Below are positions 24,418 through 28,777 of a DNA stretch of 64,000 bases, in pieces. The notes under the pieces were generated by a model. The model did not search any database, was not told the origin of the DNA, and saw only the letters and a list, made by a program, of their open reading frames with translations. The DNA comes from Hanstruepera ponticola. Its GTDB lineage: Bacteria; Bacteroidota; Bacteroidia; Flavobacteriales; Flavobacteriaceae. The stretch is taken from contig NZ_JABANC010000001.1 of NCBI RefSeq assembly GCF_012931685.1, positions 372,001 to 436,000 of the forward strand, given 5' to 3'. Every line of letters starts with the position of its first letter. Position 1 is the first letter of the stretch. A program made the translations under genes and the position numbers.

Positions 24418-24449
24418 AAAAAAGCACCCTAGTTGGGTGCTTTTTTTAT
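24418..24449. terminator. Bidirectional intrinsic terminator
   Basis: Stem AAAGCACCC / GGGTGCTTT, loop TAGTT, with A runs on the left and T runs on the right. It can serve the lipoprotein gene (plus) and the YwqK-like gene (minus). Confidence 0.88.
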
Positions 24450-24466: not shown

Positions 24467-24823
24467 TTAATCACGTTGTGCTAACGAGGATTTATTCGTC
24501 CATTCATTAACGCTTGCAATTGCATTATTACTATAATCTACTTCTTTTAAGGTTTCATTATTCCAATAAAACCACTTGCCGACTTTTTGCCCATTATCAT
24601 AATTCGCAGAAACAATTTTTTTGCCCGCCGTATTAAAGCTGAACCACTCACCTTGTAGCTTACCATCTAAAGTATATGAACCTGTTTGGCTTACAACTCC
24701 ATTGTCATGATAATAAGTCACATCAATTAAATTCGTGTCTTCGTTAAGCTTTAATTCTCTCTCTTGTTGCGCAAAAGAGACCACAGTTATTAAAAGAGCA
24801 AAAAACAATACCGTTTTCTTCAT
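24467..24823 (-). CDS. YwqK/MORN-repeat-like secreted protein
   Basis: A 118-residue protein with signal peptide (VVSFAQQ) and tandem short repeats of the type GEWFSFNTAGKKI, NGQKVGKWFYWN, resembling YwqK-family antitoxin/MORN-like repeats. The 'antitoxin' label in databases derives from a Bacillus paralogue; no toxin gene is nearby, so an antitoxin role is not supported here. It has its own TATATTTG promoter, 22 bp from the end of a four-unit Pho-like repeat array. Confidence 0.78.
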   Translation of the reverse strand: MKKTVLFFALLITVVSFAQQERELKLNEDTNLIDVTYYHDNGVVSQTGSYTLDGKLQGEWFSFNTAGKKIVSANYDNGQKVGKWFYWNNETLKEVDYSNNAIASVNEWTNKSSLAQRD

Positions 24824-24869: not shown

Positions 24870-24908
24870 AATATTAAAACAACATTCACATAACATTAAT
24901 TTAACATT
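24870..24908 (+). promoter_or_regulatory. Four-unit Pho-box-like repeat array
   Basis: AATATT (24870), AACATT (24881), AACATT (24892), AACATT (24903): four hexamers at an exact 11-bp period, the cleanest array in the region. No TTTG lies 17 or 28 bp downstream on the plus strand, so it may act on the divergent YwqK-like gene or assist the next promoter, with which it is in phase (88 bp = 8 x 11). Confidence 0.6.
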
Positions 24909-24979
24909 AAGCTTTTAATAAGCTGTTTTTAAGACTATTGAATATTTTTTTTAAAGCGTTTAAAGTTTAATAATTACTT

Positions 24980-25022
24980 AATATTTACATTACATTAAGG
25001 AGACTTTCTTTTTTAATCTTTG
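24980..25022 (+). promoter_or_regulatory. Pho-box-like promoter of candidate small RNA
   Basis: AATATT (24980), TACATT (24991) and GACTTT (25002) lie 39, 28 and 17 bp before TTTG (25019-25022) of an imperfect -7 element AATCTTTG. These are the same distances as at the receptor, porin and PiT promoters. No protein gene follows for 185 bp. Confidence 0.55.
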
Positions 25023-25027
25023 TTAAG

Positions 25028-25127
25028 TCTTAAGACACAAATAGTAATTTCATATAATCTATTAGTTTTTGTCGACTATATTATCATGAATTCTAATGGC
25101 TGCCTTTGGCCAAGGCAGCCTTTTTTT
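25028..25127 (+). ncRNA. Candidate phosphate-regulated small RNA
   Basis: About 100 bp between a Pho-like promoter and a perfect intrinsic terminator, with no credible reading frame; the only ATG (25086) would give 17 codons running through the terminator. By eye the 5' part can fold as an imperfect hairpin between GACA (25034-25037) and TGTC (25070-25073), with further pairing of AAA/TTT and ATAG/CTAT inside. The 5' end is inferred from the -7 element. No known RNA family recognised. Confidence 0.45.
25098..25127 (+). terminator. Strong intrinsic terminator without upstream protein gene
   Basis: Perfect 9-bp stem GGCTGCCTT / AAGGCAGCC, loop TGGCC, then seven T. The stem is far more GC-rich than its surroundings. 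Confidence 0.9.
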
Positions 25128-25140
25128 ATGAGCTATTAAT

Positions 25141-25183
25141 AACCTTTACATAACATTTATTTAACATTAGATTTGGTTATTTG
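25141..25183 (+). promoter_or_regulatory. Pho-box-like promoter of phosphate porin gene
   Basis: AACCTT (25141), AACATT (25152) and AACATT (25163), period 11 bp, at 39, 28 and 17 bp before TTTG (25180-25183). The -7 element GTTATTTG is imperfect, as expected of an activator-dependent promoter. The ATG follows at 25209. Confidence 0.68.
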
Positions 25184-25208
25184 CAGTGACAAAAACTAAA
25201 ATTCTAAA

Positions 25209-26399
25209 ATGAAATTAATAGCACCAGTATTTATACTGTTTATCTCCTTTCAAATAAATATTTATTCGCAAGAAATTGAATCTCCAAAATTTGGAAAAGG
25301 GCTTTTTAATCTTGTAGGCAAAGACAGTTCTTGGACTATGAAAATTGGAACTAGATTTCAATTTTTAGCTAGTAACCTGATGGCAGAGGGTCAGAATCCG
25401 GCAACCAATTTTTTAATTCGTAGAGCTCGTTTAAAGTTTGATGGTTTTGCTGTTTCACCAAAACTTAAATACAAAATTGAACTTGGTTTATCTAACAGAG
25501 ACATGTCGGGAGTATCGCAGTTTACAGGTAATACACCAAGATATGTGATGGATGCTGTAATAAAGTATAACTTTTATGAAAATTTTGTGCTTTGGGTCGG
25601 ACAAACTAAACTTCCTGGAAATAGAGAACGAGTAATTTCATCAGCCAATATGCAACAAGTTGACCGATCTATTCTTAACGCAAGATTTAATATTGATCGT
25701 GATATTGGATTCCAGTTAAGGCATCATTTTACACTTTTTAATGATTTTTTAATTAGAGAAATTTTTGCACTTTCACAAGGTGAAGGTAGAAATGTTGTAA
25801 CAGGAAATCTCGGAGGACATCAATACACTGGTCGTATTGAATTGCTACCTTTTGGAAAATTTAAAGGTAAAGGCGATTACTTTGGCTCCGATTTGAAGCG
25901 AGAGCAGAAACCAAAATTGGCCATTGGTGTTACTTATGATCATAATAATGATGCTGTAAAAACAAGAAGCAATATGGGATCATGGATGGTAACTGATACG
26001 GGATTTCATGAGACCAATATCAATACACTTTTTATAGATTCCATGTTTAAATACAAAGGCTTTAGTTTAATGACAGAATATGCTGTTAGGGATGCCGATG
26101 ATCCTATTGCTAGAAATTCTGATGGAACCGAAACTGGTGATGTTGTTCAAATTGGTGAGGGTATTAACATACAAGGCGGTTACTTGTTTAAAAATAACTG
26201 GGAGATATCAGGAAGATATTCTGGAGTAACATTGGATGAGAATATTACGGGGAAAAATCCAGAACAACAATATACTTTTGGTATCTCAAAATATATTGTT
26301 GGTCATAGCTTAAAAGTTCAAACAGACTTTAGTTTAATAGATTTTGAGAACCAGAGCGATCAGTACTTATATCGCTTACAGTTTGATATACATTTTTAA
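25209..26399 (+). CDS. Phosphate-selective porin O/P family protein
   Basis: A 396-residue outer-membrane porin of the OprO/OprP family: signal peptide (QINIYSQ), KIGTRFQFLASN, then RRARLKFDGFAVSPKLKYKI, then barrel strands to a C-terminal LQFDIHF. Pseudomonas OprO/OprP conduct phosphate and polyphosphate and are made under phosphate starvation; specificity here is inferred from family and from the repeat-bearing promoter. It lies 74 bp upstream of the PiT gene, which has its own promoter. Confidence 0.87.
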   Translation: MKLIAPVFILFISFQINIYSQEIESPKFGKGLFNLVGKDSSWTMKIGTRFQFLASNLMAEGQNPATNFLIRRARLKFDGFAVSPKLKYKIELGLSNRDMSGVSQFTGNTPRYVMDAVIKYNFYENFVLWVGQTKLPGNRERVISSANMQQVDRSILNARFNIDRDIGFQLRHHFTLFNDFLIREIFALSQGEGRNVVTGNLGGHQYTGRIELLPFGKFKGKGDYFGSDLKREQKPKLAIGVTYDHNNDAVKTRSNMGSWMVTDTGFHETNINTLFIDSMFKYKGFSLMTEYAVRDADDPIARNSDGTETGDVVQIGEGINIQGGYLFKNNWEISGRYSGVTLDENITGKNPEQQYTFGISKYIVGHSLKVQTDFSLIDFENQSDQYLYRLQFDIHF

Positions 26400-26473: not shown

Positions 26474-28777
26474 ATGGATAATATATACTTATTAATGATT
26501 GTTGCCCTAGCGGTATTAGCTATTGCTGATTTGGTAGTTGGGGTGAGTAATGATGCTGTTAATTTTTTAAATTCAGCTATTGGCTCTAAAGCTATTTCCT
26601 TTAGAACTATTATGATTGTTGCCAGTATTGGTGTGGCCGTTGGTGCCATATTCTCTAGCGGTATGATGGAAGTTGCCCGGAAAGGTATTTTTAATCCTGG
26701 CGAATTTATGTTCAGTGAAATCATGATCATCTTTATGGCGGTTATGATAACTGACATTTTGCTTTTAGATTTCTTTAATACGGTTGGTATGCCAACTTCT
26801 ACCACTGTTTCTATTGTTTTTGAATTATTAGGTGCAGCTGTTTGTATGGCCTTTATAAAAATAGGGCATGATAATGGTAGTTTTGGTGATGCTATAAACT
26901 ATATAAATACTTCTAAAGCATCTCAAATTATTTTTGGCATACTCCTCTCTGTCATTGTTGCATTTACAGTTGGGGCTGTAATTCAATGGTTTTCCAGATT
27001 ACTTTTGTCCTATAATTTTGAAAAGAAAGCTGCTTGGGTTGGGGCTGTTTTTGGAGGCGTTGCATTGACTGCTATAACTTATTTCATTTTTATGAAAGGG
27101 TTAAAAGGTACTTCTTATGCCAGTCAGTCTTTTGAAATACTAGGAGGCGAAACCATGAAAGACTTTCTTGAAACACAAGTCCTTTCTATTGTTGGCGTGA
27201 GTCTGGTTTTTTGGTCTTTACTATCATTGGTATTTATTTCAGTTTTAAAAACTAATATTTACAAACTAATTATTATAGTTGGAACCTTTGCATTAGCATT
27301 GGCGTTTGCAGGTAATGATTTGGTAAACTTTATTGGTGTTCCTATTGCAGCTTATAATGCATTTGAACAATGGTCAGCTTCAGGTTTGCCAGCAACTCAA
27401 TTCCCTATGGATGTTCTAGCGGAAAAAGTACCAACCAATAACTGGTTGTTATTTGCTGCTGGTATGATTATGGTTGCGACATTATGGTTTTCTACTAAAG
27501 CTAAAAGTGTTGTAAAAACTTCTCTAGACCTTTCAAGCCAAGGCGATACTAAAGAACGTTTTCAGCCTAACTTTTTATCTCGTGGGTTTGTAAGATTTGC
27601 TATGTTGATGTCTCAAATGTCATCTTATATTCTTCCAGAATCATGGCAAGCTAAAATTGACAAACAATTTGAAACACCTGTAATTGCTTTAAAAAAATCT
27701 AAAACCTATGAATTACCAGCATTTGATTTGGTACGTGCTGCTGTAAACCTTATGGTTGCTGCTGTTTTAATTTCAGTTGCCACATCTTATAAATTACCAC
27801 TCTCAACTACTTATGTAACCTTTATGGTTGCCATGGGTACTTCTTTAGCCGATAGAGCTTGGGGAGCTGAAAGTGCGGTATATCGTGTAGCTGGTGTTCT
27901 TAATGTTATTGGCGGTTGGTTCTTTACGGCTTTTATAGCATTTGTTTCAGCAGCCTTAATTGCTTTTTTATTGAATTGGAATGTAAATGTAATGGTTCCT
28001 GTTTTACTTTTACTGGCTACCATTTTATTAGTTAGAAATTATATTTCTCACAACAAGAAAGTAAAAGAAACTAAAGCTGAAGATAAGCTTCAAAAAGCAG
28101 AAAGCAGTTCTGTACAAGGCGTTATTCATGAAAGTGCTCAAAATATTGCCAACGTGGTTAAAAGAGGAAATAAAATATATACAAATGCCATCAATGGCCT
28201 TTCTAAACAAGATTTACCGCTTCTAAAGAAAAACAAAAAACAAGTTGAAAAGCTTTCTAATGAAATTGATGATTTAAGAGATAATATCTTCTATTTTATC
28301 AAGAATTTAGATGAGTCTAGTGTAGGAGCTAGTAACTTTTATATAAATATTTTAGGCTACTTACAAGATATGGCACAGTCACTAGAGTATATTTCTAAAG
28401 TGAGCCATAAACATATTAATAACAATCACAAAAAATTAAAATTCAATCAGATAAAAGAACTCAAACAAGTTGATGAATCACTTGAACAATTTTTTATTGA
28501 TACCAAAGCAGCTTTTGATTCACGATCTTTTGAGCTAATAGGTGATATTCTTAAAAACAAAAAAGAAATATTTAGTCTAGTTAACGAAAAGATTCAAAAG
28601 CAAGTAGAACGCACCAGAACTGAAGAATCAAGTCCTAAAAACACGACATTGTATTTTAGCGTGTTATTGGAGACAAAAGATTTACTAACAGCAACTATGA
28701 ATCTGCTTGAAGAATATCATAATTCCCATGATAGTTCTGTTGAGCCTGCTTCCATAGTAGAAGATACTGAAGAATAA
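26474..28777 (+). CDS. Inorganic phosphate transporter (PiT family) with C-terminal PhoU-like helical domain
   Basis: A 767-residue inner-membrane phosphate transporter. The two inverted PiT signature regions are VGVSNDAVNFLNSAIGS near residue 25 and FAGNDLVNFIGVPIAAYNA near residue 280. About a dozen membrane helices end near residue 525. Residues about 540-750 are a soluble, charged, all-helical region resembling PhoU/DUF47 proteins, here fused to the transporter. PiT carriers co-transport phosphate with a cation. Own Pho-like promoter and shared terminator with nrdA. Confidence 0.92.
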   Translation: MDNIYLLMIVALAVLAIADLVVGVSNDAVNFLNSAIGSKAISFRTIMIVASIGVAVGAIFSSGMMEVARKGIFNPGEFMFSEIMIIFMAVMITDILLLDFFNTVGMPTSTTVSIVFELLGAAVCMAFIKIGHDNGSFGDAINYINTSKASQIIFGILLSVIVAFTVGAVIQWFSRLLLSYNFEKKAAWVGAVFGGVALTAITYFIFMKGLKGTSYASQSFEILGGETMKDFLETQVLSIVGVSLVFWSLLSLVFISVLKTNIYKLIIIVGTFALALAFAGNDLVNFIGVPIAAYNAFEQWSASGLPATQFPMDVLAEKVPTNNWLLFAAGMIMVATLWFSTKAKSVVKTSLDLSSQGDTKERFQPNFLSRGFVRFAMLMSQMSSYILPESWQAKIDKQFETPVIALKKSKTYELPAFDLVRAAVNLMVAAVLISVATSYKLPLSTTYVTFMVAMGTSLADRAWGAESAVYRVAGVLNVIGGWFFTAFIAFVSAALIAFLLNWNVNVMVPVLLLLATILLVRNYISHNKKVKETKAEDKLQKAESSSVQGVIHESAQNIANVVKRGNKIYTNAINGLSKQDLPLLKKNKKQVEKLSNEIDDLRDNIFYFIKNLDESSVGASNFYINILGYLQDMAQSLEYISKVSHKHINNNHKKLKFNQIKELKQVDESLEQFFIDTKAAFDSRSFELIGDILKNKKEIFSLVNEKIQKQVERTRTEESSPKNTTLYFSVLLETKDLLTATMNLLEEYHNSHDSSVEPASIVEDTEE

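Follow-up and report, generated by a model that had tools for sequence, protein, structure and literature searches.

The DNA between a divergent MORN/YwqK-like gene and a Porin_O_P porin gene in Hanstruepera ponticola raises two questions: what occupies the roughly 100 bp in front of the porin promoter, and how it bears on the phosphate genes beside it. An initial annotation of the window (the whole 64,000-nucleotide stretch analysed) proposed a small RNA (sRNA) under Pho-type control. The perfect 9-bp stem and run of seven T on which that proposal leaned are present (Table 1), and they form the strongest of the three sites listed by a terminator scan of 5 kb. Such sites are not in excess there (three found versus 2.7 ± 1.7 in shuffles), so the significance of this one derives from its conservation rather than from the site count. 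The 100-nt candidate has a folding energy of -22.0 kcal/mol, compared with -13.9 ± 2.8 for shuffled sequences (z -2.9). The absence of a reading frame holds as well, in that no ORF of at least 60 aa lies between 24823 and 25209. A coding function was rejected because only short ORFs exist and because sequence conservation follows paired stems. A sigma-70-type promoter match at 25030-25058 was also discarded, as it belongs to the wrong promoter class for this lineage and lies inside the conserved RNA. Further upstream, a strong two-way terminator-like hairpin, AAAGCACCC TAGTT GGGTGCTTT, occupies 24422-24446 between two convergent genes; it is absent from the terminator scan list, probably owing to its long A/T stem ends.

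Table 1. Positions of the putative sRNA gene, its predicted target and the neighbouring genes in the window.
Feature	Position	Strand	Basis or remark
Divergent MORN/YwqK-like gene	24467..24823	-	PF07661 below cut-off; own 11-bp repeat at 24891-24908
sRNA promoter repeats, three 11-bp units TTAATAATTAC TTAATATTTAC ATTACATTAAG	24967..24999	+	Sequence and 155-locus profile; presumed PhoB-type box, regulator inferred
-7 element TTTG of sRNA gene (Bacteroidota type)	25019..25022	+	Locus profile and TAnnTTTG consensus
Expected sRNA transcription start	~25025-25029	+	Inferred
sRNA gene, ~100 nt	25028..25127	+	Conserved in 124/299 family genomes; no Rfam family
SL1, small 5' stem-loop GUC-UUAA-GAC	25027..25036	+	85.6% of cells paired; double changes in 3/3 pairs
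SL2, long imperfect hairpin with antisense sequence in 5' arm and loop	25042..25095	+	Fold and covariation (helices 2-5)
Antisense segment UAAUUUCAU	25045..25053	+	Complementary to porin start AUGAAAUUA (25209-25217)
Antisense core UUAGUUUUUGUC	25062..25073	+	Complementary to 25188-25199
Intrinsic terminator, stem GGCTGCCTT/AAGGCAGCC	25098..25127	+	Stem 25098-25120 (9 bp, loop 5); TTTTTTT 25121-25127
Porin 11-bp promoter repeat TAACATTTATTTAACATT	25151..25168	+	
Porin -7 element TTTG	25180..25183	+	143-locus profile
sRNA target, porin mRNA 5' end GACAAAAACUAA...AUGAAAUUA	25188..25217	+	
Porin_O_P porin gene, target	25209..26399	+	PF07396 5.5e-9
PiT-type (PHO4-family) phosphate transporter	26474..28777	+	PF01384 2.8e-32

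When 60 relatives were searched at the DNA level, the element appeared 5' of the porin in many genera; of 26 porin loci read, 21 have it. A covariance model, R1, was built from 22 sequences. R1 matches 124 of 299 sampled family genomes, representing 104 of 236 genera, and a relative of the porin at E 1e-20 or better is encoded in 179 of the same 299. Both are present in 120 genomes, the RNA alone in four (G074, G098, G137 and G188), the porin alone in 59 and neither in 116. One genome, G011, carries the element although it is among the 59 without an R1 hit. Removal of exact duplicates leaves 156 distinct element loci, 145 of which have the porin directly 3' of the element. A wider sample of the order yielded the element in 6 of 246, all from the same family; how many of the 246 fall outside that family is not apparent from the listing. 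The element was not matched on plasmids. At the gathering score, Rfam recognizes only a tRNA in the window, and its best sub-threshold match in the interval reaches 23.4 bits against a cut-off of 50; the element is not a known Rfam family. Additional copies were seen in individual genomes. In G168, the porin leader and no more than a short start of the porin frame follow a second sRNA gene (L155), an arrangement that looks like a partial duplication, and G149 has one element at L064 and another on a second contig (L188).

The modelled RNA comprises SL1, SL2 and the terminator helix. Across 98 distinct sequences, including that of the window, 88% of pair cells are standard, as opposed to 71% in shuffled and 24-47% in slid controls, and both partners have changed in 28 of 30 pairs. 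SL2, in which the initial annotation had seen an imperfect 5' hairpin, covaries in this set. The terminator stem (helix 6) is paired in 95.8%, with double changes in 9 of 9 pairs, and the outcome that had been named in advance as refuting the proposal, an unconserved terminator between conserved genes, did not materialize. These values come from an alignment (A3) fitted to a structure that we supplied with the model, and they lean towards that structure for this reason; RNAalifold applied to a plain MAFFT alignment (A1) recovers the inner five pairs only, one of them with a double change. A trans-encoded sRNA should be a separate gene with its own promoter and intrinsic terminator, and the promoter profile of 155 loci and the terminator helix meet this expectation. 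The sRNA proposal draws support from conservation across the family, from stem covariation, and from a conserved promoter and a terminator; in the absence of transcript data, comparative sequence evidence makes a small-RNA gene by far the best reading of the element.

The lineage employs -7 elements of the form TAnnTTTG, according to the portion of PMC9723704 available to us. Relative to this TTTG, the repeats of the sRNA promoter lie at -52, -41 and -30 (155 element loci) and those of the porin promoter at -30 and -19 (143 loci). The two sets agree modulo 11, which bears out the common repeat phase noted earlier from the window alone. The porin promoter is conserved, and the YwqK-like gene has a separate 11-bp repeat. 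Direct repeats of 11 bp upstream of the -10/-7 element, as expected for a Pho regulon member, are thus in place, and the element is flanked by the Porin_O_P and PHO4-family genes to one side and, to the other, by a gene that bears a repeat of this kind. Pho-type control is nevertheless supported only indirectly, because the case consists of the phase shared with the porin and the gene neighbourhood, without expression data. Exact TAACATT-N4-TAACATT sites number three in the genome, two of them within this interval; the third (L279) precedes a gene with no evident phosphate role. Box-like sites with one mismatch show no excess in the genome (14 versus 15 in a reversed control). A PF12849 (PstS-type) search of the H. 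ponticola genome gave no match, while 13 of 14 control genomes have one, and hence supplied no second Pho gene for comparison of boxes. Phosphate uptake in this organism may rely on the porin and the PiT transporter.

The likely partner of the RNA emerges from its complementarity. The DNA search of relatives also returned reverse-strand matches lying on porin start codons, and the SL2 loop and 5' arm, both conserved (UUAGUUUUUGUC, plus UUUCAU), are complementary to the porin mRNA at its 5' end and start codon. The initial annotation thus had the hairpin right but missed both the antisense sequence within it and the porin target. In the window, UUAGUUUUUGUC can pair with GACAAAAACUAA and UAAUUUCAU with AUGAAAUUA. 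An 8-nt core is pairable at all 145 element-porin loci, double changes included (variants judged by eye), and GACAAAAA occurs in 138 of the 145 porin mRNAs, that of L180 among them. Double changes in the core are found at L209 and L210 (TTTTAGTC with GACTAAAA, and UUUUAGUC in the sRNA with GACUAAAA), a matching one-base deletion on the sRNA and mRNA sides at L090, and changes that preserve G-U pairs at L062, L106, L114 and L161. Beside the core, AAAG faces CUUU (L020, L189), AAG faces CUU (L168, L181, L190, L191, L194), ACAG faces CUGU (L223) and UUUG faces CAAA (L018).

Exchange of partners among loci weakens the predicted duplex. For the full antisense segment, native pairs at 145 loci average -24.1 kcal/mol and swapped pairs -20.5, a mean cost of 3.6, and the lowest of 10000 permutations reaches -21.25. 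With the core removed, the flanks give -9.13 versus -6.56 kcal/mol at 143 loci (z -15.4, 0 of 5000 permutations) and -10.04 versus -5.76 at 48 divergent loci (z -12.9). The permutations ignore kinship; this objection is answered by four controls (porin codons, reversed mRNA, the sRNA 3' flank and the promoter region), because they share the kinship yet show no effect (|z| at most 1.3). Two of the 145 loci lack a called porin start and were left out of the flank, promoter, co-fold and inverted-repeat counts, which leaves 143; column counts use the 138 loci with both exact cores, and the tree contains 135 proteins. By column, pairing occurs at 131 loci at position 3 beyond the core and at 109 at position 5, where permutations reach at most 123 and 96. 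Ungapped complementarity no longer rises above permutations once position 6 is reached, and pairing farther than position 5 needs bulges. Fitch parsimony on the porin tree counts 15 pair-keeping double changes (5, 4 and 6 at positions 3, 4 and 5, and 0 at position 6), alongside one-sided changes numbering 10, 14 and 23 at positions 3, 4 and 5. Changes to an unpaired state are common on the same tree (6, 10, 21 and 25 at positions 3, 4, 5 and 6). An antisense stretch that covaries with its target mRNA is a further expectation for a trans-encoded sRNA, and it is met. Judged from these comparisons, the RNA almost certainly pairs with the porin mRNA in the region of its 5' end and start codon. The porin is singled out as the target by conservation and not by affinity, since by energy alone its site ranks sixth among non-self sites in the window.

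The target also tends to be missing where the RNA is missing. Among the 59 porin-only genomes, 35 upstream regions belonging to strong porin matches were read; G307 and 22 genomes with weak porin matches were left out. Closer reading uncovered the sRNA in 5 of the 35, as a divergent RNA beside L223, L238, L239 and L243 and at a distance of 3 kb in G128, and all five of these porin loci have the target. It is lacking in 28 of the 30 porin loci without a detectable sRNA. The two exceptions are G318, which has the target in a genome that is 84% complete, and L246, where by our own reading the pattern match lies inside the gene.

Coordinated changes on two sides could also arise by concerted evolution, with inverted repeats in the DNA converting each other and no selection on RNA pairing. 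The perfect 34-bp inverted repeat of L064, which runs through the porin -7 element as it would after a fresh inverted copy, and the resemblance of the sRNA antisense strand to the porin leader are what such conversion predicts. L064 is, however, a single locus of 143; at the other loci, the maximal perfect run measures 8-21 bases and in no case takes in a TTTG, and pairing towards the promoter, past the core, is not in excess. Selection on pairing is indicated instead by single-sided changes in which G-U pairs survive, by bulged duplexes and by the missing target at loci that lack the sRNA, and conversion as the explanation is highly improbable. The 34-bp repeat is formed by the element and the porin promoter-leader at positions 147-340 of L064 (and also at L252), and it hints that inverted copies of the leader can give rise to, or renew, RNAs of this type. 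In the window, the minus strand of 25045-25073 resembles the porin leader including ATGAA, and this similarity suggests that the sRNA originated as an inverted duplication of the leader.

The same complementarity could also work within one long RNA, and a second alternative holds that the element is a 5' leader or attenuator of the porin transcript whose hairpin arm, upon read-through, folds onto the start codon in cis. The two lie on the same strand, with 60-170 bp from element to porin start among the loci listed. On the other hand, the porin has its own conserved promoter, which ends at the target, and in G105 and G128 (L251 and L265) about 3.1 kb separates the sRNA gene from the porin, with pairing kept (-23.3 kcal/mol in G128, where the element is a weak model match at E 0.005). 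The intervening DNA in both is a cassette of a carbonic anhydrase and a SulP transporter on the opposite strand, and the separation may stem from one shared insertion event. The sRNA is not a porin leader, because in these two genomes the genes stand apart behind opposite-strand genes and still pair; the RNA also persists without a downstream porin in G018, G134 and G148. Judging from gene order, without transcripts, the element does not share a transcript with the gene that it would regulate, as a cis-acting leader must, and this alternative is very unlikely. The ability to be encoded away from the target, expected of a trans-encoded sRNA, is conversely satisfied by G105 and G128. It can hardly be entertained, finally, that the inverted similarity between element and leader reflects two copies of a protein-binding site acting at the DNA level rather than interacting RNAs; covariation in SL1, SL2 and the terminator, G-U-tolerant target changes and pairing that is independent of spacing point to RNA.

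In two genomes, G098 and G137, the leader precedes a porin with just 28% identity (at L138, a Porin_O_P protein). The leader is also borne by an additional Porin_O_P gene of G007 (L273) that the window porin does not match, and a divergent sRNA lies next to it. Leader and RNA thus stay together, for the most part whichever porin follows. A different outer-membrane gene in G264 (L272) carries the GACAAAAACTAAG leader, as does L273; no sRNA was seen in the 400 bases read beside the G264 leader. G018, G134 and G148 (L253, L255 and L254) retain the sRNA between the YwqK-like and PiT genes without a porin at that place, and a promoter-anchored exact target was not found in these genomes. A purely porin-directed role leaves the three unexplained unless loss of the porin was recent. 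Searches for additional targets were negative within their scope. The pattern TTTGN{2,7}GACAAAAAC has 4 sites in the H. ponticola genome versus 8 in a reversed control, and the three other than the porin site all lie inside ORFs of at least 100 aa. Across 12 genomes, ACAAAAACTAN{2,25}ATGAA gave 66 matches (summed by hand), 12 of them the antisense of the sRNA itself and 8 porin-type leaders; the remaining 46, against 40 in the control, give no sign of further shared targets.

The element is therefore best described as the putative gene for a base-pairing sRNA of about 100 nt, with a 5' stem-loop, a central antisense hairpin and a 3' terminator. Such an RNA probably acts in trans, is co-regulated with the porin and represses its translation, with expression, response to phosphate and the sign of regulation all inferred. 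Pairing would begin between the loop UUUUUGUC and GACAAAAA at the 5' end of the mRNA, then extend via the 5' arm across the AUG, block ribosome entry and lower porin synthesis. In the predicted duplexes, the AUG is fully paired at 105 of 143 loci, at least two of its bases are paired at 130 and it is uncovered at 7; the net co-fold energy has a median of -16.0 kcal/mol and is below -5 at 141 of 143. No structure sequesters the start of the free mRNA (unpaired probability 0.62, versus 0.54 in shuffled sequences), so nothing there needs opening; against the repressive reading, the mRNA up to codon 20 is overall slightly more folded than shuffles (-9.3 versus -8.0). Shine-Dalgarno sequences are missing in Flavobacterium psychrophilum, whose 5' UTRs have a median length of 24 bp, as stated in the part of PMC9723704 that could be consulted. 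The median distance from the GAC of the target to the AUG is 21 nt (143 loci), and the target consequently spans nearly the whole expected UTR. By analogy with the effect reported for GibS, a block of initiation is the simplest reading, because the duplex covers the AUG, the leader is open there and the target approximates the entire expected UTR.

The opposite sign of regulation, in which the sRNA activates or stabilizes the porin mRNA through a duplex that caps its 5' end and shields it from decay, draws on the position of that duplex, which starts only a few bases from the expected 5' end (GAC follows the -7 TTTG by 4 nt in the 143-locus consensus), and on the simplicity of a coherent loop in which activator and target are co-induced. 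Most predicted duplexes, however, cover the start codon, no structure that would require opening hides the mRNA start, and GibS, the known Bacteroides example of such geometry, represses, as far as the accessible text of PMC7366714 goes. Activation is accordingly considered unlikely. Under the repressive reading, both promoters would respond to one phosphate regulator, and the sRNA would brake a co-induced porin. The incoherent feed-forward loop so formed, inferred because the shared promoter repeats suggest co-induction, could cap porin levels or allow a fast switch-off upon return of phosphate.

Base-pairing sRNAs on porin start regions are a known kind of regulator. In Enterobacteria, MicF, MicC and OmrA/B pair near the starts of outer-membrane protein mRNAs and block translation; they need Hfq and usually act on distant genes. 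The element resembles them in pairing near an outer-membrane protein start, and differs in being encoded immediately 5' of its target, on the same strand and with a shared promoter type. Type I toxin-antitoxin systems such as IstR/TisB likewise employ a dedicated antisense RNA encoded beside a single target, in that case a toxin peptide rather than a porin. The closest functional likeness comes from Bacteroides thetaiotaomicron, where the consulted portion of PMC7366714 describes GibS as a trans-encoded sRNA that represses by long seed pairing over target start codons. GibS belongs to the same phylum, has no obvious Hfq and pairs at the start codon, and one of its repressed target operons adjoins the sRNA gene; its seed is a single-stranded 5' end, its targets are metabolic and it responds to sugar (PMC7366714, seen in part). 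In the element, by contrast, the antisense lies inside a hairpin, the target is one porin and the host is another bacterial family. PhoS of Bacillus shares the tie to phosphate limitation, being a phosphate-starvation sRNA from the phoR 3' end described as an activator of PhoP translation in those sections of PMC12101431 that were available, and differs in phylum and target. Within the same family as the element, F. psychrophilum has sRNAs with predicted mRNA targets, among them Rfp18, linked to proteases; in the main text of PMC9723704, as far as it could be consulted, none is tied to phosphate and the word "porin" does not occur.

The initial annotation regarded a phosphate-starvation sRNA in this position as undescribed, and a search of the open-access literature likewise gave no description, although that search covered mostly titles and the beginnings of abstracts and most subscription papers lay outside it. 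The RNA appears to work like GibS yet to constitute a new family, because it has no Rfam match and no description in the open literature; its sequence was not compared with that of GibS. To our knowledge, flavobacterial regulatory RNAs are hardly known, and we judge strong evolutionary evidence for one sRNA-mRNA duplex to be uncommon anywhere. Here, one RNA and one target can be traced with compensatory changes through many genera (the element is present in 104 of the 236 sampled), and a mechanism that operates without Shine-Dalgarno sequences, and perhaps without Hfq, thereby becomes testable. A broader proposal remains tentative and is possible rather than probable: that a dedicated sRNA with a single target, which began as an inverted copy of the leader and stayed beside it, has served in much of the Flavobacteriaceae as an incoherent feed-forward brake on phosphate entry through the outer membrane, and took on a second role after loss of the porin in G018, G134 and G148. 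The sRNA-porin pair offers a handle on how flavobacteria meter phosphate uptake.
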